Below, one piece after another: positions 2,763 through 21,096 of a DNA stretch of 21,701 bases (position 1 is the first letter of the stretch; each line of letters starts with the position of its first letter). Both the position numbers and the translations under genes were made by a program. The notes below the pieces were generated by a model, which worked only from the letters and a program-made list of their open reading frames with translations, was not told where the DNA came from and ran no database searches. Source of the DNA: a virus; the IMG/VR virus record IMGVR_UViG_3300030328_005124, positions 1 through 21,701 of that record; one strand, 5' to 3'.

Positions 2763-2768
2763 TTACAA

Positions 2769-3101: not shown

Positions 3102-3102
3102 T

Positions 3103-6100
3103 ATGGCACTTACAAAAGTTACTGGACCATTAGTTAGTGGAAGTACTAACAATTTAGGAGATTATACTGTTAATAATATTACTGGTGTTGCTGCAACATT
3201 TAGTGGCAATTTATCAGTTGGTGGTACGATAACTTATCAAGATGTTACAAGTATAGATTCGGTTGGTATAATTACAGCACAAGCAGGTATTCATTTAGGT
3301 ATTGGGGCAACAGCAGGAAAAATAGATATTGCAACAGGTATATCTACATTTACTAAAGTTGGTATCGGAACCACTAATCCAATAGCAAAATTGGAAATAA
3401 CTGGAAATGCTATTATTGGAAGTGCAGACAAAACAAATTTTTCCAATACACTTAACACAAGTGGTAATGGATTAGGTGTAACTGGATTCAGAGCTCTTAA
3501 TATTGTTGATAATAATGCTGTAATAAAAGTATCAAGAACTCACGATACTTATGGGGGAGGGATAGATTTTCAGCATTGGAATCCTGATATATCTACAAGG
3601 TATGGTAGAGGAATTGTTGGGATTGAGTCTAGTAGTATGTATATGATGAATACTACTGAAGAAGGTTACATACACTTTAATACTAGACCAACTGGTGTTG
3701 CTCATACAGAAAGAGTTCGTATCACATCAGCAGGTAAAGTTGGTATCGGAACTACTAATCCAGTAAGAAATTTAACAATTCATGGTGGATCAAGTGAAGC
3801 AAAATTAAATTTCTCAAATGTTGGAACAGGAGCAACAGGAACGGTATTTGGTGCTAACAGTAATGGTAATACTATATTATGGATATATGAAAATAAACCA
3901 TTTTATGTTGCAACTAATAATCAAGAAAGACTTCGCATCGATTCAGGTGGTAAAGTTGGTATCGGAACTAATAATCCAGATCACAATCTACACGTTTATC
4001 AAAATGCTGGTGATGCTGTAGTTACAATAGAATCCCAAGGTAATAATAATCATGCTGCACTTGAATTTTATCGCACATCATCTGCTGGAGATCATAAGGG
4101 TGCAGGATCAATTTATGTAACTGGTGATACTAGTACTAGTACAGCAACAATGAATTTTGGTGTTGCTTCTAATATTTCTCATGGTGCAAATCCAAGACTG
4201 AGTATTGTTGGTGATGGTAAAGTTGGAATCGGAACCACTACTCCAACAGAAAAATTAGATGTCCTTGGTAATTTAGTAGTTGCAGAGTCTATTGTAGTTA
4301 ATAGACCTCGAATAGTTTTATCTGCTCCTAATGATGGTACAAATTATAGACATTTATTTGGTGCAAACTTACAAGTTAATAGTTCTGGAACTTTTACAAC
4401 TCCAACTGCAAACATTAGTGGTGGTGGATGGGAATATTTTTCTGCAAATAGTCTTAATGCACATGGAGATATAAGATACCTATCTGCACCTGATACAAAT
4501 GCAACATCATCAACACCAGTAGAAAGATTTCGTATCGATAATGATGGTAACGTTGGTATCGGAACTGATGATCCAAGTGCTCTCTTGCACGTAGAAAAAG
4601 ATGGAACCTCTCAGGTTCTAGCAAAGTTTGAGTCCAATATGGGTACAAACAATAGTAGAGCACTTTCTCTAACTTCTCCAACATCAGACAGTGCATCTTT
4701 ACCTTTTACATTCTCTACTGGTAATTCGATTGAATTTAAATGTGATGATCATATTGGATTGCATATTGCATTTGATGGTAAAGTCGGTATTAATACTGAT
4801 ACTGGTATAAAGGCACCACTTCATGTTGCCCATGCTGACGGTGGTTTTGGTGCTACACCATATAATAAGGCTGCGATTTTTGGTTCTCAAGGTTGGGTAG
4901 ATGATACTAGATATCACTATAATGATGCAACTATTTTTATCTCAGGTAGAAATAATGCTGGTATTGATACTGGTGCTGGAATAGAATTTACCACTCGTAC
5001 TGTGGCTGATAATAATTGGAGACATGGAGCAATTACTTTTGGTCAAGATGGTATTTTTAGAGTTCTTAATGGTGGTGCTGGAACAACAGAAGGAACAGAA
5101 AAAGTTAGCATCTTAACAAATGGTAATGTTGGAATCGGAAGTACTACTCCAACATTAGGATTAGATATAAACAGAGGTGCTAATTCTGGTGTCTTTTTGG
5201 GTAATCCTATACATGGATATAAGGTAAGAGCGAATGTAACTAGTTCTAATGATTATGGATTGTTGATTGAGGATGAAGATGGTGTTGATCTTTATAGAGC
5301 AGTAGCTTCTACTGGTAGTTCTAACGAAAATACTCATACATTTTTTACAGCAGGTGAAGAAAGATTTCGCATCTTAGCAAATGCTGATATAACATTTACA
5401 GGGGTAGATACTAGTTTTGCGACAATAAAGTACGCAGCTAATTTCGCAAAATTAGATTTAAGAGGAACAAATATTGCAAACTCATATCATTATATCTTAA
5501 GTTATGGTGAAGGTCATGCTGAAGCTGATCACTTCCATATGGTGAATAAAACAACAAATGGTAGTTTAGTATTCCGCACTGGTTCCTCAACAGATACAAG
5601 ACTTACCATCAAATCAGATGGAGAAACTAATATTGGAACTGGTGTTGTAAATATTGCAAAGTTCTGTCAGTCTGGTAATCATCATCAAATTGTAGGACAA
5701 GCAGCAGATGATGTTGCTGCATTGGATGTTTATTCTCAACATGGTAATGATGGTGATAGAATATCTTTTGCTGTTTCTGACAATAGAACTGGTAGTAAGA
5801 GTAATTCTTTTGTTGTAAGAGGTAATGGTCAAGTTGGTATTGGAACCGAGAAATTTTATGATAGTTCTACAAAGTTAGAAGTAAAAGGAAGAATTAATAC
5901 AGTTGGTAGTGCATCCACAGGATCTATAAACCCAGGTAATGGTACTGTTGTTAATGTAGGTTCATTAACAAATCATGATGTACAGTTGATGACTGGTAAT
6001 TCTACCAGAGTAACAATTGTACAAGGAGGTACGTCTGGGGAAGCAATGCGTATCTCAGGTGTTGGTGTAACTGTACAAAGTTCCTTAACTCCTAATTTTG

Positions 6101-6915
6101 AAGTACAGACTACAGCTTCTTCAGGTCAGGATTGTAAGATAACACTAAAAGGTGCAAGAACTTCTTCTAGTACCAGTAGTATTGCTATGATACGATTCGT
6201 TAATGATACATCTTCCTCATATACGATGGGTGAAATTGTTGGTATGGATCCAGCTGGATCACATGCTAGTCAAATAGGTGATATAGTCTTTAGAACAACT
6301 CATAATGATACCACAACTGAAGTTGCTAGATTTACAGGTGGTGCAACTGCTGCTGGTAGAAATTTAAAATTTGCGGATGGATCTGGTATTGATTTCTCTG
6401 CAACTAGTAATTCACCAGGTGCTAACTCTGATACGTCAAATGAAGTTCTGGATGATTATGAACGAGGAACTTTTGATTTCAAATTAGAGGATGCAAATAG
6501 TGGTAGTGATACTCTTAAGATGCATTATGTTAAAGTCGGAAGCATAGTACATTGTTATGGTCCATTTAGAGGTAGTGAAGGATCAACTGCATCTGTATTT
6601 TGGCAATTATCAGGTACAACAGATTCAAATATAACTACTACTTGTGAATTACCATTCATTCCTGTAGATTCTGGTGCATGTGAATCACCAATTTATAGAA
6701 ATATAGAAACAAGAGAAAGTACACCGAACAATCCTGCAGATGGTGATACTATGCCAGTTTTGGGTTGGGCAGCAGGAGATTCAACATGTAGATTAACTGA
6801 TACCAGAACTGAAAAATCATATAATGCTTATACTGGTGGTGATACAATGCGAAAAGCTGATACTAGGACTAACGTTGTTCTACATTTTAATTTTTGCTAC
6901 GTTACAAATTCCTAA
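3103..6915 (+). CDS. Giant modular tail-fibre-like virion protein (1270 aa)
   Basis: The N-terminus (MALTKVTGPLVSG, then GDYTVNNITGVAATF) matches the N-termini of the 1705- and 852-residue proteins in this window, which suggests a common attachment end. A module ITYQDVTSIDSVGIITAQAG at about residues 45-65 recurs in the 1359-residue protein. From about residue 86 to 915 there are around eight units of the form (R)IDxxGKVGIGTTNPxxxLxV, each followed by a variable 60-150-residue beta-rich insert. The C-terminal domain begins at LDDYERGTF (about residue 1116), a known entry motif to receptor-facing C-terminal domains of phage fibres, and continues YVKVGSIVHCYGPF to the end. I see no S74 autoprotease signature. 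Role inferred: a trimeric fibre with its tip at the C-terminus. The ATG at 3103 lies 1 base after the previous stop, so translational coupling is likely. Confidence 0.85.
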   Translation: MALTKVTGPLVSGSTNNLGDYTVNNITGVAATFSGNLSVGGTITYQDVTSIDSVGIITAQAGIHLGIGATAGKIDIATGISTFTKVGIGTTNPIAKLEITGNAIIGSADKTNFSNTLNTSGNGLGVTGFRALNIVDNNAVIKVSRTHDTYGGGIDFQHWNPDISTRYGRGIVGIESSSMYMMNTTEEGYIHFNTRPTGVAHTERVRITSAGKVGIGTTNPVRNLTIHGGSSEAKLNFSNVGTGATGTVFGANSNGNTILWIYENKPFYVATNNQERLRIDSGGKVGIGTNNPDHNLHVYQNAGDAVVTIESQGNNNHAALEFYRTSSAGDHKGAGSIYVTGDTSTSTATMNFGVASNISHGANPRLSIVGDGKVGIGTTTPTEKLDVLGNLVVAESIVVNRPRIVLSAPNDGTNYRHLFGANLQVNSSGTFTTPTANISGGGWEYFSANSLNAHGDIRYLSAPDTNATSSTPVERFRIDNDGNVGIGTDDPSALLHVEKDGTSQVLAKFESNMGTNNSRALSLTSPTSDSASLPFTFSTGNSIEFKCDDHIGLHIAFDGKVGINTDTGIKAPLHVAHADGGFGATPYNKAAIFGSQGWVDDTRYHYNDATIFISGRNNAGIDTGAGIEFTTRTVADNNWRHGAITFGQDGIFRVLNGGAGTTEGTEKVSILTNGNVGIGSTTPTLGLDINRGANSGVFLGNPIHGYKVRANVTSSNDYGLLIEDEDGVDLYRAVASTGSSNENTHTFFTAGEERFRILANADITFTGVDTSFATIKYAANFAKLDLRGTNIANSYHYILSYGEGHAEADHFHMVNKTTNGSLVFRTGSSTDTRLTIKSDGETNIGTGVVNIAKFCQSGNHHQIVGQAADDVAALDVYSQHGNDGDRISFAVSDNRTGSKSNSFVVRGNGQVGIGTEKFYDSSTKLEVKGRINTVGSASTGSINPGNGTVVNVGSLTNHDVQLMTGNSTRVTIVQGGTSGEAMRISGVGVTVQSSLTPNFEVQTTASSGQDCKITLKGARTSSSTSSIAMIRFVNDTSSSYTMGEIVGMDPAGSHASQIGDIVFRTTHNDTTTEVARFTGGATAAGRNLKFADGSGIDFSATSNSPGANSDTSNEVLDDYERGTFDFKLEDANSGSDTLKMHYVKVGSIVHCYGPFRGSEGSTASVFWQLSGTTDSNITTTCELPFIPVDSGACESPIYRNIETRESTPNNPADGDTMPVLGWAAGDSTCRLTDTRTEKSYNAYTGGDTMRKADTRTNVVLHFNFCYVTNS
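4012..4130 (+). repeat. Module shared with the 1359-aa fibre gene (copy A)
   Basis: This 119-base stretch aligns without gaps to 15125-15243, with about 16 mismatches by hand count. It encodes the segment DAVVTIESQGNNNHAALEF followed by GAGSIYVTGDT. The protein similarity continues to the next VGIGT motif, but the DNA match is strongest here. Confidence 0.8.
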
Positions 6916-6921
6916 TAAATA
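6914..6921 (+). promoter_or_regulatory. T4-type late promoter box (AATAAATA)
   Basis: AATAAATA differs from the T4 late consensus TATAAATA at the first base and overlaps the stop codon of the 1270-residue gene. It lies 38 bases before the ATG at 6960, which leaves room for a leader containing a strong ribosome binding site. T4-like late genes are read by a phage sigma factor that recognises this single box. Chance matches are possible in AT-rich DNA, but the position in an intergenic gap supports it. Confidence 0.6.
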
Positions 6922-6928
6922 ATAATGC

Positions 6929-6942
6929 CTAAACCTGTTTAG
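6929..6942 (+). other. Short palindrome in the leader of the 95-aa gene
   Basis: CTAAAC-CT-GTTTAG is a perfect inverted repeat of 6 bases per arm with a 2-base centre. It lies between the late promoter box and the GGAGG ribosome binding site. It could form a small hairpin in the mRNA or be a protein-binding palindrome; it could also be chance. Confidence 0.35.
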
Positions 6943-6945
6943 TTC

Positions 6946-6950
6946 GGAGG
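6946..6950 (+). promoter_or_regulatory. Ribosome binding site GGAGG
   Basis: GGAGG stands 9 bases before the ATG at 6960. It is one of only two strong Shine-Dalgarno sequences at gene starts in the window. It fixes the start of the 95-residue gene and suggests that this product is made at a higher rate than the fibres. Confidence 0.75.
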
Positions 6951-6959
6951 ACTTTCCTA

Positions 6960-7247
6960 ATGGCTCTTACTGAATCAATTGAATATGATAAGATTGAAGT
7001 TGTTGGACTTTATAAACATATTCAAGTTAGAAAAGCTACAGTTATAAAAAAAGACGGAAATGAAATAACTCGTACATTTGATCGTTATGTTTTAAAATGT
7101 GGATCTCTAGATGGTGATAATGAATTAGTAGAAACTGATATTTCTGGTCAACCAGATGAAGTAAAAGTAATATGTAATGCAGCATGGACAAATGCAGTCA
7201 AAGAATCTTGGAAAAACTATATGATTGCCCATGATAATGGAACTTAA
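6960..7247 (+). CDS. Small conserved-type phage protein, function unknown (95 aa)
   Basis: The product is MALTESIEYDKIEVVG followed by YKHIQVRKATVIKKDG, a FDRYVLKCG stretch and a C-terminal helix VICNAAWTNAVKESWKNYM. It is a small mixed alpha/beta protein with no signal peptide or membrane segment. The N-terminal half looks like two beta-hairpins and the last third is a Trp-containing amphipathic helix. I recognise similar short proteins next to fibre genes in T4-like cyanophages, but no function is known to me. It has its own late promoter box and a strong GGAGG site, unlike the fibre genes around it, which suggests abundant independent expression. A fibre-assembly helper or small virion component is plausible inference only. 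Confidence 0.8.
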   Translation: MALTESIEYDKIEVVGLYKHIQVRKATVIKKDGNEITRTFDRYVLKCGSLDGDNELVETDISGQPDEVKVICNAAWTNAVKESWKNYMIAHDNGT

Positions 7248-7264
7248 TTGTTATGAAATGTACT

Positions 7265-7272
7265 CATAAATA
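7265..7272 (+). promoter_or_regulatory. T4-type late promoter box (CATAAATA)
   Basis: CATAAATA lies 13 bases before the ATG at 7286. With T4-like spacing, transcription would begin about 6 bases after the box, giving a leader of only about 8 bases and excluding any Shine-Dalgarno sequence from the transcript. Confidence 0.6.
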
Positions 7273-7285
7273 GGTAAAAAGTATA

Positions 7286-10200
7286 ATGGCATTAGATAAA
7301 TTAACTAAAATTGATTCTCAAACTGGTATAAGAACCACAGCTGATTATACTGTATCAGATTTAACAGTGGATACTGTAACTGTTAAATCTGGTGGAATCA
7401 AGATGCCAGTTGGAATGAGTACATTCCAAAATGTTACTGTTACTGGAGCATTAACAGTAGAAGGAACGACAACAACATTAGATACTAATTTGATAGGTGT
7501 AGATAGAGTTGAAGTAGGAGCAAATAGTGATAGTGTTGTTGGTGTAGCAGTCACACAAAGTGGATCAGCAGATATTGTAAAGTTAGTTGGATCAGGAAGT
7601 ACAGTTGTTACTGTTACTACTGGTGGAAATGTTCTTGTGGGAACAACAAATGAAGGTACTGCTGCCCAGTTGTTGTCACTTTATAGAACAGGTTCATCTT
7701 CATTAGAATTGAGAACTAATACAACTGGAAATAGTATTGTTCATTTTACTGATGGAGATCCACCATCAGGTAATGCAGCATATAGAGGATTTATCGAATA
7801 TAATCATAGAAATGATTTTATGAAGTTTGGTACTTCTGCGTCGGGAAGAGTTTGGATTAATAGTGCGGGAGTTGGTATCGGAACGACCAACCCACAAGTA
7901 AGATTGCATATATTAGCTGCTAATCCAGTTATAAGATTAACAGATTCAGATCAAGCAGCAGATAATAAGAGTTGGAATATTGCTGCTGGATTCTCTAATC
8001 TTTTAAGATTCCAAGCAATAAATGATTCTGGATCTGGTGGTGGAAATTTATTTGAATTTTATAGAACTGGAACGGCAATAAATCAATTCCGTGGACTTAA
8101 ATCAGCTGTTCCTTGGTTTGTAATTGATAATGACACCAGAAGAGTTGGTATCGGAACTAGTGTTCCAGACACACCTGTACACATATATGCAAACGACGCA
8201 ACATTAATTACTGCTGAGAGATCAACAAATGCTAATGCTGCCATAAGATATAAAAATACAGTTTCAAGTATGTTTGCTGGATTGACATCAAATGCGAATG
8301 GATGGGCAGTTGACGATGATGAAGATCTAGGAACAGCTCCAATGTTCTTTGTTGATCGATCAACAGGTAAAGTTGGTATCGGACTCACTAATCCAACTTA
8401 TAATTTGCATATAAAGAATGGTGCAGGTGATGCAAATTCTCGTGTTGAAGCTATTGCTGGTGATTCGTTACTTAATTTATCAAATACTGGAAATGCAAAT
8501 TGGAGTGGAATAAACTTTGTAAGAGAAAGAAGCACTGGAACTGGTGTAGTTGGTGGATCAATTTTTATGCCATCAGTTACTGCAAATAATAGTGCATTAC
8601 TGTATTTGCAAACTCAAACTGCTTCTGCTCAATCAGGTGTTGATGGTGCATTAACTGATAATAATGGTGTTAGATTAAAGTTAGCATCACAACCTGGTGG
8701 TGTTGCTGCAGATACTGCATTTACTGTTGAAGTAGGTGCTTCAGAAAGACTTCGCATCGACTCAAGTGGTTTCGTTGGTATCGGAACTGACAATCCACAA
8801 AAGACTTTAAATGTTTTTGCTGGTGTAGGAACAACTGAGTTAATTCGTCTTTCTCAAAATGTTGATGCTAGTGTTCAACAAAATTTTGGAATAGGTTGGT
8901 GCTCAAATAATGACCATGACTGGCCTGGAGCACAAATAACTTCTGAGGAATATGATGTCTCAGATCCAAGGAGATCTTTACTTTTTTATACTAGAGGAAC
9001 AAATGATGATATTGCTCCTACTGAAAGAATGCGTATCAATGCAGATGGCCAGGTTGCGATTGGAACTAATACTACAACTAATATTTTCCGTATATTTTAC
9101 ACTGATTCAACGGTATGGCCTTTTGGTTCTGTGGTAAGTGGAGCACCTTCATATACTCCATACTCTAATGAGGTAGTTCTTCAGAATCATGTAAGAGACA
9201 CAGAGGGTTCATTTGCTAGTATCTTTTTCCGTGCAGGATCAGATGCTAGTGGAGGTAAAATTGGAGCAGCAAGAATTGCTGCTGTAGAGACAGGAGATTA
9301 TAAAGCAGATCTTGTATTTGGAACAAGAAATACTACATTCGCTGAAAGACTTCGCATCCAATATGATGGTAAAGTTGGTATCGGAACTAATGTACCAGGT
9401 GCAAAACTTCATGTGCATACTGCTCCTGGTTATGGATCCATAGCAAAATTTGGTAGTACTGACAGTACATCTGGAGAACAATATGAAGCTCTAGAAATAA
9501 ACAATGGTACAGCAACATATCCTGCATTAATAAATCAGGCATCTGGTGATACTTTAGATTTAAGATCTTTGGGTTCGATTCAGGCAACGATAGATGCTAA
9601 TGCTAATGATAATAATACTAAGTATTTCCGTGTATCTGCTAATGGTATCGGTAATACTGCAACTGAATTATTCAGAGTTCATGAATCTGGTGATGTTGGT
9701 ATCGGAACGACTGGTAGTGTTAATAGATTGCATGTGTATTCGGATGTAGCTTCTCTTGCAAAATTTGAAAGAACTGGTGGAGCATGGGCAAAGGTAGATA
9801 TTAAAGCAGGTAATAATACTGGTAATTCATATCTTACATTTAGTGATACTGATGCATCTGAAGTTGGTGCTATTAATTATGAACATAATGATGATAGTTT
9901 GAGATTGATGACATATAATGGAAGTAGTAAGACTGATAAACTTATTATTACAGGGGTTGGAACTGTTTATATGCCAATTGAAGGTGCTAAATTTGGAGTA
10001 TCACAAGATCCAGATTTAACCACAATGGGTGCGACATCTGGAACTTGGCAACTTCCTGAAGTTGATGGGCAAACAATAGGTGCTGAGATGAGAATTGGAG
10101 ATATTAACTCCAGTACCACAGCATTAATTAGACTAGCAAGTTATGGATCTGGTGATGGTGGAGTAGGTGGTGGAGCAATTATGTTCACCAATACAAGATG

Positions 10201-12403
10201 TGGATCTGCCAGTCATCATAGTGATCTTGCAGCAATTAAAGGAGCAAGAGAATCTCTTGGAAAAGGATATTTAAGATTCTTTACTGCATCTAGTGCTGCA
10301 AATACTGAGAAGATGCGTATCGACTCAGTTGGCCGTGTATTAATTGGTGTAACTGAGGCAATGACTACTGGATCTGATGATCATAGAGATACTCTTCAGG
10401 TAGTTGATACAGCAGGTGGTCAACTTCTACTAGGACGTAATGATACAGAAACATCAGTATCAAATAGGTTAGGTGAAATTGCAGCACTAGGTAATGATTC
10501 TGGTGGAGCTGGATATAAGGTAGGTGCATCTATAAGATTTGAAGTTTCTGCTACTCATGGTAGTGGTGGTGATTATCCAACAGCAATATTATTTAAAACT
10601 TGTAATGATGGTAGCGACACCTTAGAAGAGAGAGTACGTGTTAATCATGATGGTAATTTGGTATTCACATCATCTCAAATCCAAAAAATTAATAATACTG
10701 GTTCTCTGGTTGTTGCTGGTGGTGATAATTCAAATGTTGGTGGTAATATTACATTGTATAGTGCTAATCATAGCACTGCTGATTTACAAAATGTAATTAG
10801 ATTTAGGAATAGTGCAACTGAAGTAATGCGTATTGATGGTAGTGGTAGACTACTTCTGGGTAGTAGTAGTGAAACTGATCGTTCTATTAGTAATGACGCA
10901 AATGCACTTCTACAATTAAGTTCTGGAACAACACCTAAAATGATTCTTGTTAGAGATGATACTAGTATTGTTTCTGGTAATCATCTTGGATTAATTGATT
11001 TCCATAGTATAGATGCAGGTCCAGTTAGGTGTGCAAGAATTGGAGCACTTGCTGTATCAACTCATCAGTCAACTGATCATGCTACTGCTTTAGTATTCGA
11101 GACTTGTGCTGATAATAGTTCAACTACTTATGAAGCGTTGCGTATTTGTCATGATGGTGATATTGCGATTAACAAAAATGATATGAATACATCAAATGCT
11201 GCTATTCTTGAAATAAGTTCGCATGATGTTCAAAACAAATTTAATAATGATAATCAATCACAATATGCTCTATTAATCGATAGTCATCATTCTGGTACTG
11301 AAGCAATGACTTCAAATAGAACGAAAGCAGGTATAAGAGTGGATATGGAGTACAGTGGTACTGGTGCAAAGGATAATGCTTCTGGTAGTAGACAGTCATT
11401 GTATGGAATACATTCTACAGTAAATACAACAAAAGATACATATACAAATTATTCTGGATACTTCTTTGCAGAATGTAATGCAGATGATCAAGAGGAATCC
11501 ACTACCATTATCGGTGTATATGGATATGGAAGAACTTATAGTAGTGGAGGATCAAATAGAACCTCCACAATATATGGTGGATATTTCTTAGGATATAGAG
11601 GTGGAGATTGTAACGCTGGACATTGTTATGGTTTATATGCACGATCACATCAGACCACTAATGGATCTGGTAAGACTGGTGATATGACTGGTGTGTATGC
11701 AGAATGTGAATTTGATGAGGAAGATATTACAAATGCATATGCCTTCAGGGGGCATATGGACAGGGATGCTGGTACTATCTCAAATGGTTATCTCTTTTAT
11801 GGTTCTTATGCTGGAGATGCTCATTTTACCAACAGATGGGGAATTTACATAGGAGATTCTGCGAAGAACCATCTTGCTGGTAATTTAACAATTACTGGAG
11901 ATTTAAATGCTGGTGCAGGAACAAAAGATTTTAGAATAGACCATCCATTACCAGCATTGAAAGATACAAAAGATTTAGTTCATGCTGCGATTGAAGGCCC
12001 ACAAGTAGACTTAATTTATCGTGGTAAGACTACTCTTGTTGCTGGTATATCTACAGTTAATATTGATACAAAAGTAGGAATGACAGAAGGAACATTTGTT
12101 TTATTAAATCGTGATGTTCAGTGTTTTACAACAAATGAAACAGGTTGGACAAATATAAAAGGATCAGTGACTGGTAATAAACTTACAATTATTGCACAAG
12201 ATAATACTTGTACAGATACTATTTCTTGGATGGTAATTGGGGAACGTCAAGATGATGGATTGAAACAAATGGATAGCACTGATGCTGATGGTAAACTCAT
12301 TCTTGAACCTGATAGGAGAACTGATCTTAACGATAAATATCAGGCAGAGTCTGAGAAAAATATTTACAATATAGATCCTAATCATAATCCTGGTGAAGAA
12401 TAG
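7286..12403 (+). CDS. Giant modular tail-fibre-like virion protein (1705 aa)
   Basis: This is the largest gene in the window. The N-terminus MALDKLTKIDSQTGI, then ADYTVSDLTVDTV, parallels the other fibres. Residues about 45-115 hold the module GALTVEGTTTTLDTN, then VGVAVTQSGSADIVKL, which also starts the 852-residue protein. From about residue 196 there are many (L)RIDSxGxVGIGTTNP units alternating with variable beta-rich inserts. Later inserts degenerate to VLIGVTE and LLLGSSSE forms. Residues about 1370-1535 form a second repeat class rich in Gly and Tyr (YSGYFF, VYGYG, YGGYFLGY, CYGLYARS, GVYAEC, NRWGIYIGDSAKNHLAG). The C-terminal domain (about 1543-1705) starts GTKDFRIDHPLPALKD and contains HAAIEGPQVDLIYRGKTTL and SWMVIGERQDDG. 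I recognise this domain from other phage fibre-like proteins without an assigned function. Role inferred: a long trimeric adhesin. Confidence 0.85.
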   Translation: MALDKLTKIDSQTGIRTTADYTVSDLTVDTVTVKSGGIKMPVGMSTFQNVTVTGALTVEGTTTTLDTNLIGVDRVEVGANSDSVVGVAVTQSGSADIVKLVGSGSTVVTVTTGGNVLVGTTNEGTAAQLLSLYRTGSSSLELRTNTTGNSIVHFTDGDPPSGNAAYRGFIEYNHRNDFMKFGTSASGRVWINSAGVGIGTTNPQVRLHILAANPVIRLTDSDQAADNKSWNIAAGFSNLLRFQAINDSGSGGGNLFEFYRTGTAINQFRGLKSAVPWFVIDNDTRRVGIGTSVPDTPVHIYANDATLITAERSTNANAAIRYKNTVSSMFAGLTSNANGWAVDDDEDLGTAPMFFVDRSTGKVGIGLTNPTYNLHIKNGAGDANSRVEAIAGDSLLNLSNTGNANWSGINFVRERSTGTGVVGGSIFMPSVTANNSALLYLQTQTASAQSGVDGALTDNNGVRLKLASQPGGVAADTAFTVEVGASERLRIDSSGFVGIGTDNPQKTLNVFAGVGTTELIRLSQNVDASVQQNFGIGWCSNNDHDWPGAQITSEEYDVSDPRRSLLFYTRGTNDDIAPTERMRINADGQVAIGTNTTTNIFRIFYTDSTVWPFGSVVSGAPSYTPYSNEVVLQNHVRDTEGSFASIFFRAGSDASGGKIGAARIAAVETGDYKADLVFGTRNTTFAERLRIQYDGKVGIGTNVPGAKLHVHTAPGYGSIAKFGSTDSTSGEQYEALEINNGTATYPALINQASGDTLDLRSLGSIQATIDANANDNNTKYFRVSANGIGNTATELFRVHESGDVGIGTTGSVNRLHVYSDVASLAKFERTGGAWAKVDIKAGNNTGNSYLTFSDTDASEVGAINYEHNDDSLRLMTYNGSSKTDKLIITGVGTVYMPIEGAKFGVSQDPDLTTMGATSGTWQLPEVDGQTIGAEMRIGDINSSTTALIRLASYGSGDGGVGGGAIMFTNTRCGSASHHSDLAAIKGARESLGKGYLRFFTASSAANTEKMRIDSVGRVLIGVTEAMTTGSDDHRDTLQVVDTAGGQLLLGRNDTETSVSNRLGEIAALGNDSGGAGYKVGASIRFEVSATHGSGGDYPTAILFKTCNDGSDTLEERVRVNHDGNLVFTSSQIQKINNTGSLVVAGGDNSNVGGNITLYSANHSTADLQNVIRFRNSATEVMRIDGSGRLLLGSSSETDRSISNDANALLQLSSGTTPKMILVRDDTSIVSGNHLGLIDFHSIDAGPVRCARIGALAVSTHQSTDHATALVFETCADNSSTTYEALRICHDGDIAINKNDMNTSNAAILEISSHDVQNKFNNDNQSQYALLIDSHHSGTEAMTSNRTKAGIRVDMEYSGTGAKDNASGSRQSLYGIHSTVNTTKDTYTNYSGYFFAECNADDQEESTTIIGVYGYGRTYSSGGSNRTSTIYGGYFLGYRGGDCNAGHCYGLYARSHQTTNGSGKTGDMTGVYAECEFDEEDITNAYAFRGHMDRDAGTISNGYLFYGSYAGDAHFTNRWGIYIGDSAKNHLAGNLTITGDLNAGAGTKDFRIDHPLPALKDTKDLVHAAIEGPQVDLIYRGKTTLVAGISTVNIDTKVGMTEGTFVLLNRDVQCFTTNETGWTNIKGSVTGNKLTIIAQDNTCTDTISWMVIGERQDDGLKQMDSTDADGKLILEPDRRTDLNDKYQAESEKNIYNIDPNHNPGEE

Positions 12404-12412
12404 GATAACAAT

Positions 12413-12420
12413 GATAAATA
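12413..12420 (+). promoter_or_regulatory. T4-type late promoter box (GATAAATA)
   Basis: GATAAATA lies 19 bases before the ATG at 12440. The box and the bases after it (TAAATAACTAAAAAATAA) recur almost unchanged upstream of the gene at 16554, with one difference in 18 positions. The predicted leader is about 14 bases and carries only a weak AAGAG. Confidence 0.6.
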
Positions 12421-12439
12421 ACTAAAAAATAAGAGTGTC

Positions 12440-15400
12440 ATGCCTTATATTGGTCAATTACCTGCAACTGGTGAGAATAATGCGTTTAGGATATTAGATG
12501 ATATTTCTTCTTATGTTCTAACATTTGATGGATCGGATGCGAGTGTTGTAAGTACATCGAATGATACAATTACAATAACTGGTGCAGAAAATAGATTTCT
12601 TACAGGACAAAGAGTAACATATAGTAAAGGCTCTGGTGGAACGGTAATAACTGGGTTAACAGATGATACAGCATATTATGTAATTAGAGATAGTAATACA
12701 ACAATAAAACTTGCTACTAGTTCATCAAATGCAACTAATGGTGTAGCAGTTGATCTAACAGGTGTTGGAGGAGGAACAGCACATAAAATAACTCTAGCAT
12801 TTGATGGAACAAATACAAAATTTAGAACAACATATGATAGTGGAAAGCAAGATCCAAAGGTAACTAGAGCTGCTCAATTAGTATTATCAATAAATGGTAT
12901 TATTCAACAACCAATTGATAGTACATCACCTTCTTCTGGTTTTGGAATTGATGGTGGTGATATTGTATTTTCAACTGCACCTGATGCCAATGATGATTTT
13001 TGGGGTCATGTATTAGCAAGTAATACAGTAACATTTGATATTTCTGATAATGATATTGATAATTTTACTGGTGATGGATCAACAGTAAACTTTACTCTTT
13101 CAAAAACTCCATCAGATAATAGAAATGTTTTAGTTACATTAGATGGTGTAGTTCAGTATCCATCAGATAATAGTACAACAAGAGCATATCAAGTTTCAGA
13201 GAATGAATTACAGTTTGTAAGTGCTCCTGCATTAAATGTTTCGATACAAGTAAGACATATTGGTTTTGCTGGTGCATCAAGTGGTTCTAGTGCATCTGGT
13301 GGAGTAACAGGATTTTATGGTAGAACAGGTAATGTAGTATTAAAGAACACAGATAATCCAGTTATTGGTAATTTAACAGCAGTAGATGGAACATTTAGTG
13401 GTAATGTCTCGATTGCAAAGACATTAACATACATGGATGTTGCACATATTGATGCTGTTGGTGTGGTTACAGCACAATCTGGTATTCAATGTCTTGATGA
13501 TTTGAATGTTGGTTTAGGTACATTTTTTGTTGATAAGAGCACAGGATTTGTAGGTATTGGAACTATTGTTCCAGGAAGGAAACTTCATGTAGTGTCCGAT
13601 GAACAGGTAGTAGGACTTCTTACATCTACAAATGCTGCAAATAAAAGTTTTCTGAGGATGTCGGATCCTACTACAACTTCTCAAGGAACTGCCCCCTCTA
13701 TTGGAAGTAAGGGTGATTTTTTAGAGTTAAGAACTGGTAGTGCTACTAGATTAACTATCGACTCAAGTGGTAATATTGGTATTGGAAGCACTGCTCCTGC
13801 TCAAGTATTACATTTAGAAAGAAATGGTGCATTTCAAATTCTTTTAAAAAGAGGTGGTGGTGCTCCTAGTGAGGTGGCATTTAAAAACTCAGGTAATTAT
13901 GCAGTAATCTCAAATAATACAAACGGAATAGATTTACAAACAGGTACGACTCCATCATCTTCGATGCATATCGATCAAGATGGTCATGTTGGTATCACAA
14001 CCGAAGAACCACAGAGAAATTTACATATACATCAAAATACAGCAGCTAGTGCTTATTTGCATATGACTAATAGCACTACAGGTGCTACAACCACTGATGG
14101 TTTTAGTTTGTATATTGCAACTAGTGGAATTGCATATTATCGGGCAAGAGAAACTACAGGACAACATGTATTTTATACAGGAACTACAGAAAAATTTCGC
14201 ATAGATGAAGATGGTAAAGTTGGTATCTTAAGCACCAGTCCAGGAAAAACATTAGATATTATAGGTAGTTTACAAGTAAAAGATACTGGTAACAAGATAG
14301 GACTTCTTGTTGATCCTTCTACTGGTGATTTTCAGGTAAATCAATCTGTTGCAAGTTGGAATAATCCTGGTGTAGATCCAGTTGGTCTTTTGAAATGGGG
14401 TTGGACTGGTGCAACTGGAAATTATATGTATATGGGTTCTGGTGGTAATGATACTGTTGCCAGTCAGATGGCATTATTAATTTCGGGAGAGGATGGGTTT
14501 AAGGTTGGAAGATCTGCATGGGATGGAACTAATGGTGATATTTCAGCAACTAATGAATTTTTCACAGTTAGTAAAACAGGTAGCGTTGGTATCGGAACTT
14601 CTGTTCCAGCTGGAAGATTGGAAGTAATTGATACGAGTGCTCTTGGTATTATTTCACGATCTGCAACCACACAAGCAACTGATACTAACAGAGCACTTAA
14701 GGTAAGAAATAATAGCACAACAGATACATTTAGTGTAAGTTACAAAGGAGAAGGTTACTTTGCAGGTAGAGTTGGTATCGGAACTGATGATCCTTCTACA
14801 GATATTCATATATGGGATGATGCACCTAATATTAGATTAACAGATACAAATCCATATGCAGTAAATCGGTATGGACAAATCGCACAGTCTGGAGGTGTAT
14901 TACAATTAAGTGCAAGAGGTGATGGTTCTGAACATGGTAGTGTATACATGTATGCTGTCAATAATAGTGAGACATTGAATATGTATCGGGGAGCCGACAA
15001 CTATCATTCGTGGTACACCGCAAATGATAGTAATAGTGTAAAGATGCGTCTCACTAATGCTGGTGGTCTTGGTATTGGAACTATTACTCCAGATCATCTT
15101 CTACATGTTCATAAGGGTGGTGGTGATGCTGTAGTCACAATCGAATCTACAGGTAATGGTAATCATGCTGCACTTGATTTTAAACGTACATCATCTGGTG
15201 GAGATAGTAAGGGTGCAGCATCAATTTTTGTAACTGGTGATACAGGTGGAAGTGAAGCAAAACTGGAATTTGGTGTTGGTCATAATATTAATCATGGCAC
15301 TGATACAAGAATGGTTATTATGGGTAATGGTGAAGTTGGTATCGGAACTGATAACCCATCTCAACTACTTTCTCTTTCTAGCACTTCTCCAAGAATTCTA

Positions 15401-16519
15401 TTAACACATGCAACATCACCTGCATCAAATTGTTTTATAGATTATGCAGCAGCTGGAGTACTTGAATTATCTGTTGATGATAATAATGTAAGTGCGAACA
15501 GTAAACTTCAAATTAGAATGGATGGTGGTGCAGCTGCTAAACTTATGATTAATTCTTCTGGTCAAGTTGGAATTAATCAAAATGATTGGGATGATAAAAA
15601 TCATATGTTTGAGGTAGTCAATGATACTCATAATGTAGAAATTGCAAGATTTACTTCAGGTGCTGGTGGTGCTGGATCAGTAGTAGGTGAGGGATCTATT
15701 GGACTTTCTGTATTTGGTTCAACTGTCTATCCCCATGTATCAATTGGTGTAGAGGAAGCTTCAAATGCAAGTTATGCAGGTCATTTGACATTTGCAACTA
15801 GAAGTGTTGGTAGTGATTCGAAACCAGTTGAAAAAATGCGTATCAAATCGAGTGGTGAGGTCGGTATCGGAACCACTACTCCATCTGGTACTTTGCATTT
15901 AAGTGGTACTGGACCAGTATTGACCTGCACAGCAGATAATGGTTCTTCTGGACTTAGAGTTAATACTGTAAATCAAACTACAGGTCAAGTATTTAGAGTC
16001 CAGCAGGATGGTACTACTAAATTTGAAGTTGCTTGGAATGGACATACAACAATTACTAATGGTTTCTCATTTGGACCTCATCATGGGCATACAAATGATG
16101 AAAATATGAAAATGCATATGTATAGTAATAATACTATTAATGATGCTGTTAATTTTTCAGTTGCGATTCAATTTGGTAATGCAAATAATGGACCTTTTAT
16201 GATTGAATTATACCAAGCTCATAGTCATTACACAGGTAATGCTTCATATTGTAAGATACTTGGTTCATATGGTGCTCATGATGCTAGTGGTGGTTGCTCT
16301 TTTCTTGTATTAGAGAAACAAGGATATATCGACACAGGTTCGGTATTCGCAGTTACTGATAATAGCACTTCTACTCAAAGAACTAATAATACTGATTATA
16401 CGATTACTATTACAGGTAAATCTGCTTCTTCTAATACTGGCACTAGTCTTAAAGTTAAGACTTACGTTATTGTTTATAGTAGAACTGGTCCAGCATCAGT
16501 TGTATTTGCTGAAGTTTAA
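12440..16519 (+). CDS. Giant modular tail-fibre protein with a distinct N-terminal adaptor (1359 aa)
   Basis: The N-terminus MPYIGQLPATGENNAFRILD, then DDISSYVLTFDGS, is of a type that opens tail-fibre proteins in many marine phages, unlike the MALTKV type of its neighbours. Two copies of an adaptor-like module follow: VLSINGIIQQP with FSTAPDANDDFWGHVL (about residues 150-195) and VTLDGVVQYPSD with LQFVSAPALNVSIQVRHIGF (about 220-275). The linker GVTGFYGRTGNVVL at about 288-301 is a familiar fibre-shaft entry. LTYMDVAHIDAVGVVTAQSG links to the 1270-residue protein. Around eight VGIGT units run from about 371 to 1145. The C-terminal domain (about 1209-1359) starts GFSFGPHHGHTNDEN and resembles none of the other C-termini in this window. 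Role inferred: a receptor-contacting fibre attached by a different base. Confidence 0.85.
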   Translation: MPYIGQLPATGENNAFRILDDISSYVLTFDGSDASVVSTSNDTITITGAENRFLTGQRVTYSKGSGGTVITGLTDDTAYYVIRDSNTTIKLATSSSNATNGVAVDLTGVGGGTAHKITLAFDGTNTKFRTTYDSGKQDPKVTRAAQLVLSINGIIQQPIDSTSPSSGFGIDGGDIVFSTAPDANDDFWGHVLASNTVTFDISDNDIDNFTGDGSTVNFTLSKTPSDNRNVLVTLDGVVQYPSDNSTTRAYQVSENELQFVSAPALNVSIQVRHIGFAGASSGSSASGGVTGFYGRTGNVVLKNTDNPVIGNLTAVDGTFSGNVSIAKTLTYMDVAHIDAVGVVTAQSGIQCLDDLNVGLGTFFVDKSTGFVGIGTIVPGRKLHVVSDEQVVGLLTSTNAANKSFLRMSDPTTTSQGTAPSIGSKGDFLELRTGSATRLTIDSSGNIGIGSTAPAQVLHLERNGAFQILLKRGGGAPSEVAFKNSGNYAVISNNTNGIDLQTGTTPSSSMHIDQDGHVGITTEEPQRNLHIHQNTAASAYLHMTNSTTGATTTDGFSLYIATSGIAYYRARETTGQHVFYTGTTEKFRIDEDGKVGILSTSPGKTLDIIGSLQVKDTGNKIGLLVDPSTGDFQVNQSVASWNNPGVDPVGLLKWGWTGATGNYMYMGSGGNDTVASQMALLISGEDGFKVGRSAWDGTNGDISATNEFFTVSKTGSVGIGTSVPAGRLEVIDTSALGIISRSATTQATDTNRALKVRNNSTTDTFSVSYKGEGYFAGRVGIGTDDPSTDIHIWDDAPNIRLTDTNPYAVNRYGQIAQSGGVLQLSARGDGSEHGSVYMYAVNNSETLNMYRGADNYHSWYTANDSNSVKMRLTNAGGLGIGTITPDHLLHVHKGGGDAVVTIESTGNGNHAALDFKRTSSGGDSKGAASIFVTGDTGGSEAKLEFGVGHNINHGTDTRMVIMGNGEVGIGTDNPSQLLSLSSTSPRILLTHATSPASNCFIDYAAAGVLELSVDDNNVSANSKLQIRMDGGAAAKLMINSSGQVGINQNDWDDKNHMFEVVNDTHNVEIARFTSGAGGAGSVVGEGSIGLSVFGSTVYPHVSIGVEEASNASYAGHLTFATRSVGSDSKPVEKMRIKSSGEVGIGTTTPSGTLHLSGTGPVLTCTADNGSSGLRVNTVNQTTGQVFRVQQDGTTKFEVAWNGHTTITNGFSFGPHHGHTNDENMKMHMYSNNTINDAVNFSVAIQFGNANNGPFMIELYQAHSHYTGNASYCKILGSYGAHDASGGCSFLVLEKQGYIDTGSVFAVTDNSTSTQRTNNTDYTITITGKSASSNTGTSLKVKTYVIVYSRTGPASVVFAEV
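15125..15243 (+). repeat. Module shared with the 1270-aa fibre gene (copy B)
   Basis: Ungapped partner of 4012-4130, encoding DAVVTIESTGNGNHAALDF followed by GAASIFVTGDT. The sequence preceding it (PDHLLHVHKGGG) also matches copy A (PDHNLHVYQNAG) at the protein level. The similarity fades after the following VGIGT motif. Confidence 0.8.
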
Positions 16520-16528
16520 TTTATTATA

Positions 16529-16536
16529 CCTAAATA
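16529..16536 (+). promoter_or_regulatory. Late promoter box variant (CCTAAATA)
   Basis: CCTAAATA differs from TATAAATA at the first two positions. Its downstream context TAAATAACTAAAAAGTAA matches that of the box at 12413, which supports a shared function. It lies 17 bases before the ATG at 16554; the predicted leader has no clear Shine-Dalgarno. Confidence 0.5.
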
Positions 16537-16553
16537 ACTAAAAAGTAATATAG

Positions 16554-19112
16554 ATGGCATTCACCAAAGTCCGTGGTCGGGGAGTCACTACAACAGATAA
16601 TTATACAGTTGGAGTTATAACTGCGACCAAGTTCGTTGGCCCAATTACTGGTGGTGGAGGAGGAATTAATGTTGGTGTTTTAACAGCAACAGAATTAGAT
16701 CTTAATGGTAATGGAAATATTAGTGGCAATCTTGTAGTTGATGGTAATCTTACAGCAAACGGAGACTTCACTACATTAAACACAACTTTAAGAGAAGTAG
16801 AATTATTAAAAGTAAATGCAAATAGTTCAACAACAGCAGGTATAATAACACAAACAGGTGCAGGAGACATATTAAACTTATTTGATGGATCTACAGAAGT
16901 GATGACTGTAGTTGATGGAGGTAAAGTCGGTATCGGAACTGATAATCCATCCGAAAAATTATCTATAGAAAATGGTAATATTTTTATTAGAGATGCCTCT
17001 GATAATGAGTCATATATTTATTTTACACATAGTCCAATAGCAAATAGAAGATCTTATATCGGTGCGGTAGAGGGAACTGGAAATTCAAATTCATTAGTTT
17101 TTGCTACTAATGCTGATGGTGCTGATGGTGTAGAAAAACTTCGCATCACATCTGCTGGTTCAGTTGGTATCGCAACTGTTACTCCTCAAGGTAATGTTAA
17201 TATTCATGGAAGTGCTAATGATGATGTAAAATTATATTTGACAACTCCTATTAAAACTAAAACTCGTATTGGTTATTTGGGATTATCTAATCGTTTTGGA
17301 ATGGATGTTGAAAATGGATTCCAAATAAGAGATGCTGCTGCTTCTTATGCGACAAGAATTCTTATCTCATCAACTGGTGCTCTTTGTTTTAGTGATACTG
17401 CTGATGATAGTGCTGATGGATACGGAACTTCAGGGCAAGTATTAACCAGTAATGGTAATGCTCCTCCTACATGGCAAGCTGCTGGTGGAGGTGGTGGTAG
17501 TGGATCTGGTATCTCAACGATTAGTGGTGTTGTAAATATCGCTGATGATTTAGATGTAGATGGACATACAGAATTAGATAATGCTAATATCACTGGTGTA
17601 ACAACTTTTGCATCAAATCTTACAATATCAGGAGATGGATCAAACAACAGTCTGATTACAGAGTCTGGTGCTGGTAATCTATTCATCAAGGCAGATGATG
17701 CGATATTTAACAACGCTGCTGGAGATACATTTCTTGGAAAGTTTAATTCTGATGGTTTGACTATTCCTGGAAATATAGTTCATTCTAGTGATACTAACAC
17801 TACGATTGGTTTTCCAGGAAATGATGCATTTACAGTCACGACTGCTGGTTATGCGAGAATGGAATTTTCTGGAGATTATATTTACCTGAATGGACAACAA
17901 ACTGGTAATAATCGTGGATTATTATATAATTATGCTGCAGGACTGGGTTTTTATGGAAGTGTAAGTTCTAATGCTAGTGATCAAAGAGAGATAACATTTT
18001 ATACAAATGGTAACACACAAAAAGTAAATATTAATTCTTTTGGAGTCAATATGGTGGGTATTACTACCGTAACTGATACTCTTAAAGTAGGAACTGCTAT
18101 TACAGCACATGCTGGTATTATTACTACCAATAGTGTTTATGGTAAACTTAATAATTTAACTTATCCAACTGCTAATGGTACTGATGGTCAAGTATTAACT
18201 AGTGATGGGGCTGGTGTTGTACAATGGGAAGATGCTCCTGGAGCAGGTGGTGGAATTTCAGGTATAACCATTGAGAATGATGGTAGTGCATTATCAACTC
18301 TTGCTACAACTTTAAATTTTACTGGAGCTGGTGTTGTAGCAAGTGGAACAGGAGCAGAAAAAACAATTACAATTTCTGGTGGTGGTGGTGGAGGAGGAGC
18401 TTCTGGTTTATGGGCATCAAATGCAACTGGTATTAATACATCAACAAATGTTGGTATAGCAACCACTACTGCTTCTGCCATGCTTGAAATTGGTAGTTCT
18501 GGTATTGCGACTGCCACTACTATGATTAATGCAAAGGCATGGGATGGTCAAACATTTAACGTTGATGGTAATATTACATCAGGTTCTATTTTTGCTGTTA
18601 ATGATATAAGTGGTCTTCCTGTAGTAGATTATAATGCTACTCATGGTCTGTTATCATTAGCACCGTTTGGTGGTAATGTTTCTATTGGTTATACTAATTC
18701 AGGTACTAAACTTGGTCTTAAAGGTAGTACATCTGAAAGAGTTTATATAGTAGCTGATGAACTATCTGATCAGCCATCAGATACAATTAATATTGATAAT
18801 GGAAACGTACAATACTTTACCACTGCTGAAGATGGTGGTACTTTAACTGCTAATATTACATCAAATAATACACTTAATGCTGATTTGGCAATTGGAGATT
18901 CTGTCACCGTTGTTGTTATTATAAAACCAGATAGTACTTCTGATAATATTACTAATATTACGATAGATGGTAGTGCAGCTACAGAAGAATGGTTAGGGGG
19001 AACTGCTCCAAGTGGTGGTGCGAATGGTACTTATGATGTGTACACATTCTTCATACTTAAAACTGCCGATGCAACATTCCTTCCTCTTTGTAATAAAGTT
19101 AATTTTGCATAA
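16554..19112 (+). CDS. Modular tail-fibre-like virion protein (852 aa)
   Basis: The N-terminus MAFTKVRGRGVTTTDNYTVG matches the MALTKV family, followed by a Gly linker (about residues 35-40) and the module NGDFTTLNTTLREVELL, then AGIITQTGAGDILNLFDGS. It has fewer VGIGT units than its neighbours (about residue 125, with variants later). Two DGQVLTSDG-type units (about 295 and 545) are each followed by a Trp-containing strand and a Gly-rich hinge (about 309 and 608), a layout common in phage fibres. The C-terminal domain from about residue 740 begins INIDNGNVQYFTTAEDGGTL, runs through IGDSVTVVVIIKPDS and ends YDVYTFFILKTADATFLPL; I recognise this as a frequent marine-phage fibre C-terminus without an assigned ligand. 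The gene stops 6 bases before the glycine-rich gene, so the two are probably co-translated and may work together. Confidence 0.85.
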   Translation: MAFTKVRGRGVTTTDNYTVGVITATKFVGPITGGGGGINVGVLTATELDLNGNGNISGNLVVDGNLTANGDFTTLNTTLREVELLKVNANSSTTAGIITQTGAGDILNLFDGSTEVMTVVDGGKVGIGTDNPSEKLSIENGNIFIRDASDNESYIYFTHSPIANRRSYIGAVEGTGNSNSLVFATNADGADGVEKLRITSAGSVGIATVTPQGNVNIHGSANDDVKLYLTTPIKTKTRIGYLGLSNRFGMDVENGFQIRDAAASYATRILISSTGALCFSDTADDSADGYGTSGQVLTSNGNAPPTWQAAGGGGGSGSGISTISGVVNIADDLDVDGHTELDNANITGVTTFASNLTISGDGSNNSLITESGAGNLFIKADDAIFNNAAGDTFLGKFNSDGLTIPGNIVHSSDTNTTIGFPGNDAFTVTTAGYARMEFSGDYIYLNGQQTGNNRGLLYNYAAGLGFYGSVSSNASDQREITFYTNGNTQKVNINSFGVNMVGITTVTDTLKVGTAITAHAGIITTNSVYGKLNNLTYPTANGTDGQVLTSDGAGVVQWEDAPGAGGGISGITIENDGSALSTLATTLNFTGAGVVASGTGAEKTITISGGGGGGGASGLWASNATGINTSTNVGIATTTASAMLEIGSSGIATATTMINAKAWDGQTFNVDGNITSGSIFAVNDISGLPVVDYNATHGLLSLAPFGGNVSIGYTNSGTKLGLKGSTSERVYIVADELSDQPSDTINIDNGNVQYFTTAEDGGTLTANITSNNTLNADLAIGDSVTVVVIIKPDSTSDNITNITIDGSAATEEWLGGTAPSGGANGTYDVYTFFILKTADATFLPLCNKVNFA

Positions 19113-20065: not shown

Positions 20066-20680
20066 ATGAGAAAAGAAATAAAATTAAATATACCTAAAGA
20101 TAAATTAGATTTTATCTATCACGTTAAGAGTGCATTAAGTTTTGATGAATGTAATAATATAATTAAATTTTATGATGATAATGAAGAATATCATCGATAT
20201 GGAACTCTGACGGGTGATACTACAAAAGAATATTCTAAATTAAAAAAATGTACTGAAATTATTATAAGTAAAAATCTTTTAATTGAAAGTGAATATTTTA
20301 AATCTTTTGATTCAACAATTATAAAAATTATTGATGAATATAAGATGAAATATAATTATCTTAATTATACAAGAAAATGGGGAATGAATGGGGTTTTTAA
20401 GATACAAAAATATTTACCTTCGGAGGGATATTTTGGTACACATTGTGAAAATGATGGTGTACCTGATGATTGTATGAGAATGTTGGCTTGGATGGTTTAT
20501 CTCAATACTGTTACCGATGGTGGAGAAACAGAATTTCCATGCCAAGGGGTTAAGTTTCAACCACATTGCGGTGATGTTTTAATATGGCCTGCATATTGGA
20601 CTCATCCTCATCATGGATTAACATCTCCATCACAAGAAAAGATTATTATGACTGGATGGTATAGTTATTATGATACTTGA
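20066..20680 (+). CDS. 2-oxoglutarate/Fe(II)-dependent oxygenase (prolyl 4-hydroxylase-like)
   Basis: A 204-residue soluble protein of typical length for the single-domain phage members of this superfamily. Such enzymes hydroxylate a substrate using O2, Fe(II) and 2-oxoglutarate. The iron triad is readable as H126-C-E128 (in GTHCEND) and H182 (in WTHPHHGL), and K192 ten residues later is the expected 2-oxoglutarate carboxylate ligand, followed by the usual TGWYSY end. The first pair is HxE, where most relatives have HxD. Strands VYLNTVTDGGETEFP and GDVLIWPAYWTH are the characteristic core. T4-like cyanophages often carry several such genes; their substrates are mostly unknown. The gene follows the glycine-rich protein by 29 bases, with no clear ribosome binding site or late box in the gap, only an AT-rich TATAAT at about 20037. 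Modification of a virion protein encoded upstream is possible but unproven. Confidence 0.9.
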   Translation: MRKEIKLNIPKDKLDFIYHVKSALSFDECNNIIKFYDDNEEYHRYGTLTGDTTKEYSKLKKCTEIIISKNLLIESEYFKSFDSTIIKIIDEYKMKYNYLNYTRKWGMNGVFKIQKYLPSEGYFGTHCENDGVPDDCMRMLAWMVYLNTVTDGGETEFPCQGVKFQPHCGDVLIWPAYWTHPHHGLTSPSQEKIIMTGWYSYYDT

Positions 20681-20688
20681 CACTTCAT

Positions 20689-20696
20689 AATAAATA
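20689..20696 (+). promoter_or_regulatory. T4-type late promoter box (AATAAATA)
   Basis: AATAAATA sits 8 bases after the oxygenase stop. With T4-like spacing transcription would start near 20702, immediately before the run of hairpins that ends in an intrinsic terminator. The box therefore seems to drive a short RNA rather than a protein gene. Confidence 0.6.
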
Positions 20697-20701
20697 CATT
20701 A

Positions 20702-20813
20702 TAATAGTCTCATCTTCATCATCCTTGTAGATTCGGGAATGAAGTCACTTCTCTGTGGTGGGAGAAGTGTGTTGGTGAGAGAACAGGGAGGAAAAGTCCT
20801 CCCTTTTTCTTTT
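20702..20813 (+). ncRNA. Candidate structured small RNA with four contiguous hairpins
   Basis: The gap between the oxygenase and glutaredoxin genes is richer in G+C than the surroundings and folds by eye into back-to-back stems. P1: 20714-20719 pairs with 20739-20744 (CTTCAT/ATGAAG), then after a 2-base bulge 20722-20724 pairs with 20736-20738 (TCC/GGA). P2: 20746-20753 pairs with 20762-20769 (CACTTCTC/GAGAAGTG) around an 8-base loop. P3: 2070-73 of this segment, that is 20770-20773, pairs with 20782-20785 (TGTT/AACA). P4: 20786-20792 pairs with 20797-20803 and is followed by a T run. Promoter box, stems and terminator fit an RNA of about 110 nt. The 5' end is estimated from T4-like promoter spacing. 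It could instead be a leader or attenuator for glutaredoxin. I do not recognise a known RNA family. Confidence 0.6.
20786..20813 (+). terminator. Intrinsic (rho-independent) terminator
   Basis: A perfect 7-bp stem GGGAGGA/TCCTCCC with an AAAG loop is followed directly by TTTTTCTTTT. It is the only strong intrinsic terminator I see in the window and marks the end of the late fibre/oxygenase transcript or of the small RNA just upstream. Confidence 0.85.
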
Positions 20814-20820
20814 ATAAATT
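20813..20820 (+). promoter_or_regulatory. Possible late promoter box (TATAAATT) for glutaredoxin
   Basis: TATAAATT matches the T4 late consensus at 7 of 8 positions and lies right after the terminator T run. It could restart transcription for the glutaredoxin gene. Being in very AT-rich sequence, it may be chance. Confidence 0.35.
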
Positions 20821-20853
20821 ATTATAGCAATGTTAATTAATAAATTAATCAAA

Positions 20854-21096
20854 ATGAATTTTGCCGTTTATTCTAAGGATGGATGTCCATATTGTGATAA
20901 AGTGAAGCAAGTATTGGAGTTGACAGGAAGTAACTTTGTGGTATATAATTTAGGAGATCAATTTGATAGAAAATCATTTTATGGTGAGTTTGGAGAAGGA
21001 TCTACTTTTCCCCAAGTTGTTGTAGATGGTAACAAACTAGGAGGATGTGTTGACACAATCAAATTCCTTAAAGAAAACCGAATCATCAAAGGATGA
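20854..21096 (+). CDS. Glutaredoxin
   Basis: A short classical glutaredoxin of 80 residues from the chosen start. It begins MNFAVYSKDGCPYC, with the dithiol active site CPYC 11-14 residues in, the cis-proline loop STFPQV, and the GGCVDT motif that helps bind glutathione. It is a cytoplasmic thiol-disulfide exchanger; in T4-like phages such proteins can supply electrons to ribonucleotide reductase (the NrdC role), which fits a phage that must make dNTPs in its host. An in-frame ATG at 20830 would add MLINKLIK. I prefer 20854 because glutaredoxins normally begin just before the first beta strand and this extension is not part of the fold, but neither start has a clear Shine-Dalgarno. The gene lies 40 bases after a strong terminator, so it needs its own promoter or read-through. 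No ribonucleotide reductase gene is in the window. Confidence 0.9.
   Translation: MNFAVYSKDGCPYCDKVKQVLELTGSNFVVYNLGDQFDRKSFYGEFGEGSTFPQVVVDGNKLGGCVDTIKFLKENRIIKG

Follow-up and report, generated by a model that had tools for sequence, protein, structure and literature searches.

The window, the whole 21.7-kb virus record analysed (21,701 nt), is closest at the DNA level to T4-like cyanophages among the phages of the collection compared. Toward its 3' end, two genes identified through Pfam, a 2OG-Fe(II) oxygenase gene and a glutaredoxin gene (20830-21096, plus strand; PF00462, E 5.9e-13), flank an intergenic RNA locus that begins directly 3' of the oxygenase stop codon. Many related glutaredoxin loci carry the same RNA element upstream. 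The gene upstream of the RNA differs from copy to copy, and the next gene after it is glutaredoxin in nearly all copies, mostly immediately downstream. Elsewhere in the window, positions 303-19112 hold several long tail-fibre-like genes with many repeats of 'VGIGT' and 'ANGDLDVDG(R)(S/A)ELDNVNIAETLNV' units.

The RNA gene is headed by a sigma-70-type (early) promoter, TTGACA-17-TATAAT, on the plus strand (20677-20705), matching the consensus at 12 of 12 positions. Among 93 homologues, 84 have an exact TTGACA at -35 and 85 an exact TATAAT at -10, and in 92 the two boxes are 17 nt apart. In 91 of these 93 copies, the RNA core lies equally far from the -10 box, which places the predicted RNA start near 20712. 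The predicted 3' end, at 20810, follows from the position of an intrinsic terminator (20785-20813, plus strand), composed of an 8-bp G+C-rich stem, a 4-nt loop and a T run; a terminator scan recognises it in 91/93 homologues and finds it (20785-20804) as the single plus-strand terminator between 16500 and 21701. The T run that the earlier note had marked at the end of the stretch is part of a terminator, and the dedicated RNA gene that it had proposed is strongly supported by the conserved promoter and terminator, covarying stems and invariant loops of 95 aligned copies, with a predicted plus-strand transcript (20712-20810) of ~98 nt in place of the ~110 nt given there. Predicted homologous transcripts measure 97-108 nt. 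The late-promoter box to which the same note had assigned the gene, an ATAAATA string (20690-20696, plus strand), is present but lies in the spacer of the sigma-70-type promoter and is shared by only 3 of 93 homologous RNA promoters; no TATAAATA-type late box occupies the -10 position of the RNA. The late-type promoter box TATAAATTA (20813-20821, plus strand), which contains TATAAAT, belongs instead to the glutaredoxin gene, and a TATAAAT late-type box follows the RNA terminator in 89 of 93 homologues. Each position upstream of the promoter carries on average 0.16 bit of information, compared with 1.76 in the -35 box, 1.74 in the -10 box and 1.51 in the RNA core. Promoter, structure and recognition loops are nearly fixed in both an isolate and many environmental contigs, which argues for strong selection on the RNA gene.

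The stretch has a folding energy of -40.3 kcal/mol, compared with -29.2 ± 3.3 kcal/mol in dinucleotide shuffles (z -3.38; 0/200 as good). Hairpin 1 (20714-20744, plus strand), delineated by RNAalifold and fixed-structure pair counts, is composed of a bulged stem and an 11-nt loop, TTGTAGATTCG, at 20725-20735. Hairpin 2 (20747-20768, plus strand) presents the loop GTGGTG at 20755-20760, which shows no variation in the alignment and stays unpaired in 94/94 folds; the TTGYA loop is unpaired in 91/94. A G/U-rich linker (20769-20784, plus strand) connects hairpin 2 to the terminator and carries a conserved GTTGGTG (20771-20777), seen as near-invariant columns in two alignments. The conserved sequence elements of the RNA comprise a UUGYA..UUYG loop and the GUUGGUGG linker. 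Four adjacent hairpins had been described for this stretch; hairpin 1, hairpin 2 and the terminator hairpin stand, and the third, of 4 bp, falls outside the consensus, its region being mostly unpaired linker (UUGGUG unpaired in 65/92 minimum-energy folds).

Given no structure in advance, RNAalifold arrives at hairpins 1 and 2 as well, and 11 of the 16 pairs that it predicts show changes on both sides. With the structure fixed, changes occur on both sides in 12 of 17 pairs (6 of 10 in hairpin 1 and 6 of 7 in hairpin 2, where 99.6% of cells are paired), and 95.4% of all cells are paired, a figure that falls to 85.4% on shuffling. For covariation, the real data score 0.351 and the shuffles 0.170 (0/500), with structures slid along the alignment reaching at most 0.10. 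Because this alignment had been fitted to a covariance model, we repeated the analysis on a MAFFT alignment made without reference to structure, using a null in which alignment columns evolve independently along the tree. Compensatory changes, which the earlier note had proposed to look for, number 17 when counted on the same branch, against 1.07 ± 1.02 expected (0/300). In a stricter, generic covariation test applied pair by pair against a tree-aware null, several top-ranked pairs are pairs of the proposed structure and no single pair reaches E < 0.05; the covariation support rests on the aggregate and not on individual pairs. Loops that are nearly fixed and unpaired above changing stems typically mark recognition elements, and a recognition function is implied here.

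DNA patterns drawn from the RNA core match 29, at least 119 and 4 stretches in IMG/VR, three overlapping sets that have some contigs in common, and the homologues share the promoter, its spacing and the terminator. A covariance model built from eight RNA copies finds 95 copies (70 distinct) in 94 sources, with E values from 3e-21 to 8e-10, so the covariance search foreseen in the earlier note bears out its expectation of conservation at this locus in related phages, the RNA being mostly kept upstream of glutaredoxin together with its promoter and terminator. One copy usually occurs per genome, as in the phage-sized records G001 and G002, where it is strong; two occur in each of G004 and G008. 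The only isolate found to carry the RNA, among those searched, is S-SRM01 (MW015081), a Synechococcus phage from a freshwater reservoir in Singapore, with a copy at 10975-11048 where the deposited record has no annotation. The covariance-model search returned no credible copy in the isolates DSL-LC03, S-SKS1, P-TIM68, S-CAM9, ACG-2014f, S-CRM01, S-PM2, Syn9 and P-SSM2 or in the single-cell virus AG-345-L05. S-PM2, ACG-2014f and Syn9 gave weak hits with scores well short of those of genuine copies, and inspection of the S-PM2 sequence showed that it is not the RNA. Among 84,980 prokaryote species, one DNA pattern, covering one of the two hairpin-2 types only, gave four unrelated matches that had no promoter, none named as cyanobacterial. 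BLASTN with the window's RNA alone returned short chance-like matches only, mostly to the terminator; two other RNA copies gave no matches, and an S-SRM01-like copy (L233) matched only S-SRM01 besides short chance-like stretches. The RNA gene is very probably a free-standing gene of T4-like cyanophages (Kyanoviridae).

Several copies differ from the common arrangement. Two (L134 and L248, in records G006 and G008) precede a collagen-like repeat gene and have no recognisable consensus promoter; G008 holds a further, promoter-bearing copy ~42 kb from its promoterless one. A truncated second copy lies on the reverse strand of L120, from ~1669 of the reverse complement, and merges into a glycine-rich tail gene via a common GGTGGTGG sequence, a sign that the RNA gene and tail genes may have recombined.

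No family in Rfam release 15 matches the RNA at gathering cut-offs, in line with its proposed undescribed status, and relaxed thresholds give only sub-threshold, chance-like matches. Over ten homologous loci, Rfam identifies a tRNA and two glutamine aptamers and leaves the RNA itself unmatched. Two related phage contigs have glutamine riboswitch aptamers (RF01739) on the downstream side of the RNA, at 2176-2224 in L116 and at 2602-2650 in L027. A term search of the paper describing S-SRM01 found no mention of the RNA. There is very strong comparative support for a real phage sRNA family, apparently previously undescribed in Rfam and the open-access literature, with a description elsewhere possible.

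RNAs reported from T4-like cyanophages in the literature consulted comprise CfrI, wcaG, manA, PhotoRC-II, glnA and abiF. CfrI of cyanophage S-PM2 is an antisense RNA of ~225 nt (Millard et al. 2010, via PMC5931967 and PMC12197685). Both it and the new RNA are free RNAs of T4-like cyanophages; as described there, however, CfrI lies at the psbA 3' end, antisense to psbA, whereas the new RNA is intergenic, ~100 nt long, equipped with its own sigma-70 promoter and terminator, and far from psbA. In S-SRM01, the RNA (10975-11048) is not antisense to the 3' part of psbA, which is located at ~207.4-209.0 kb. The wcaG, manA, PhotoRC-II and glutamine (glnA) motifs are cis-regulatory leaders in cyanophages (PMC2864571, PMC9964418). 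They resemble the new RNA in being structured, covarying and derived from T4-like cyanophages and marine metagenomes, but they act as cis leaders, whereas the new RNA appears to be an independent gene. Catalogued cyanophage non-coding RNAs are mostly such leader elements from Rfam scans. The closest likeness in anatomy is to short intrinsic-terminated trans-acting sRNAs of bacteria and phages, which share the fixed promoter spacing, 5' hairpins, exposed conserved loop and terminator, although in sequence and structure the new RNA matches no known family.

We consider the stretch very probably a phage small-RNA gene, a view that draws on comparative sequence analysis. The fuller statement, a free-standing RNA gene that is transcribed early and acts in trans, likely by base pairing, is on balance probable. 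In S-PM2, sigma-70-like motifs mark early and Gp55-type boxes late transcription of T4-like cyanophages (PMC5931967). Since sigma-70 motifs are equated there with early promoters, host RNA polymerase would transcribe the RNA early in infection, and glutaredoxin would be transcribed from the late-type box 3' of the RNA terminator. The two hairpins and the terminator would stabilise the ~100-nt RNA, and the GUGGUG loop and the GUUGGUGG linker, both exposed, could pair in trans with a CACCAC/CCACCAAC-type sequence. The paired target would be one common to many hosts or phages, with its translation or stability altered as a result. Base pairing through GUGGUG/GUUGGUGG has, in our estimate, about an even chance of being the mechanism and is judged likelier than protein titration. 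A search for base-pairing targets in the three phage genomes S-SRM01, G001 and G002 yielded no conserved one.

The start codons at 89350 and 90334 of S-SRM01 (MW015081) belong to neighbouring genes with an identical 5' leader, CTCAGTTCACACCACTGAACCATG, in which a CACCAC-loop hairpin forms at the start codon; G001 has one similar leader. These leaders were rejected as a conserved target because they represent a single duplicated leader that is not shared by G001 and G002.

The best-surviving alternative, though a rather unlikely one, is a protein decoy, in which large amounts of the RNA, transcribed from the consensus promoter, would titrate an RNA-binding protein of the host or the phage through two GGUG-containing exposed sites, the GUGGUG loop and the GUUGGUGG linker. 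CsrB/RsmZ-type titrating RNAs carry the motif GGA. The new RNA resembles them in repeating a short motif at exposed positions but differs in that its motif is GGUG and occupies two sites only. Consistent with titration are the two exposed G/U motifs, which resemble each other and vary little, a consensus promoter fitting high output and the lack of a conserved phage mRNA target in the three genomes. Against it stand the small number of sites per RNA, the usually single gene copy per genome and the lack of a candidate protein. More tentative still, and doubtful at present, is the idea that an abundant early cyanophage RNA reprogrammes the host as a G/U-rich kissing loop or decoy, in which case its partner might be an RNA or RNA-binding protein conserved in all picocyanobacteria. 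If true, this would constitute a widespread viral take-over RNA with a mechanism not yet described in phages.

Cyanophages are abundant viruses of oceans and lakes. As the cultured phage S-SRM01 carries the RNA, its expression, timing and partners are open to direct tests, and these may show in what way hosts are redirected at the RNA level by T4-like cyanophages.

A role as 5' attenuator, one of the possibilities raised in the earlier note, or as riboswitch leader would have the RNA govern read-through into glutaredoxin. Nearly all copies precede that gene and the RNA is terminator-ended, but the terminator is constitutive and almost always present, alternative antiterminator pairing was not seen, and a separate late-type box for glutaredoxin follows the terminator. 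Nor do the copies always stand before the same gene in a shared transcript: three (L108, L159 and L247) precede genes other than glutaredoxin, the unrelated genes in L108 and L247 having their own consensus-like promoters, and in two more (L069 and L222) one gene intervenes between the RNA and glutaredoxin. Because some copies adjoin other genes or recur within a genome, the RNA is better read as an independent gene than as a glutaredoxin leader, and attenuation is improbable; the mostly immediate adjacency to glutaredoxin may leave some room for a cis role.

More improbable again is that the locus is merely a terminator and structured 3' UTR of the upstream gene with no free-RNA function. Its position directly after the oxygenase stop codon and the intrinsic terminator at its end fit this reading, but the upstream gene varies between copies, and the DNA upstream of the promoter is unconserved in comparison with the promoter and RNA. 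A very short coding gene is scarcely credible and was rejected: an ATG followed by ~26-30 open codons is present in some copies, but 32 of 94 have no ATG, RNA core lengths spread about equally over the three frames, the longest peptides are 81 different ones that are not shared, and substitutions track base pairing, so the absence of a convincing ORF noted earlier extends to the absence of any conserved frame across the 94 copies.

A second perfect promoter, TTGACA-18-TATAAT, overlaps codons inside the glutaredoxin gene (20920-20949). Over 88 distinct phage glutaredoxin genes, counted with kinship ignored, TTGACA is exact in 83 and TATAAT in all 88, and the spacing is always 18 nt. The Leu codon at this site is TTG in 88/88 genes, compared with an overall TTG usage of 0.29 there, and the element looks like a conserved early promoter hidden within the glutaredoxin coding sequence.
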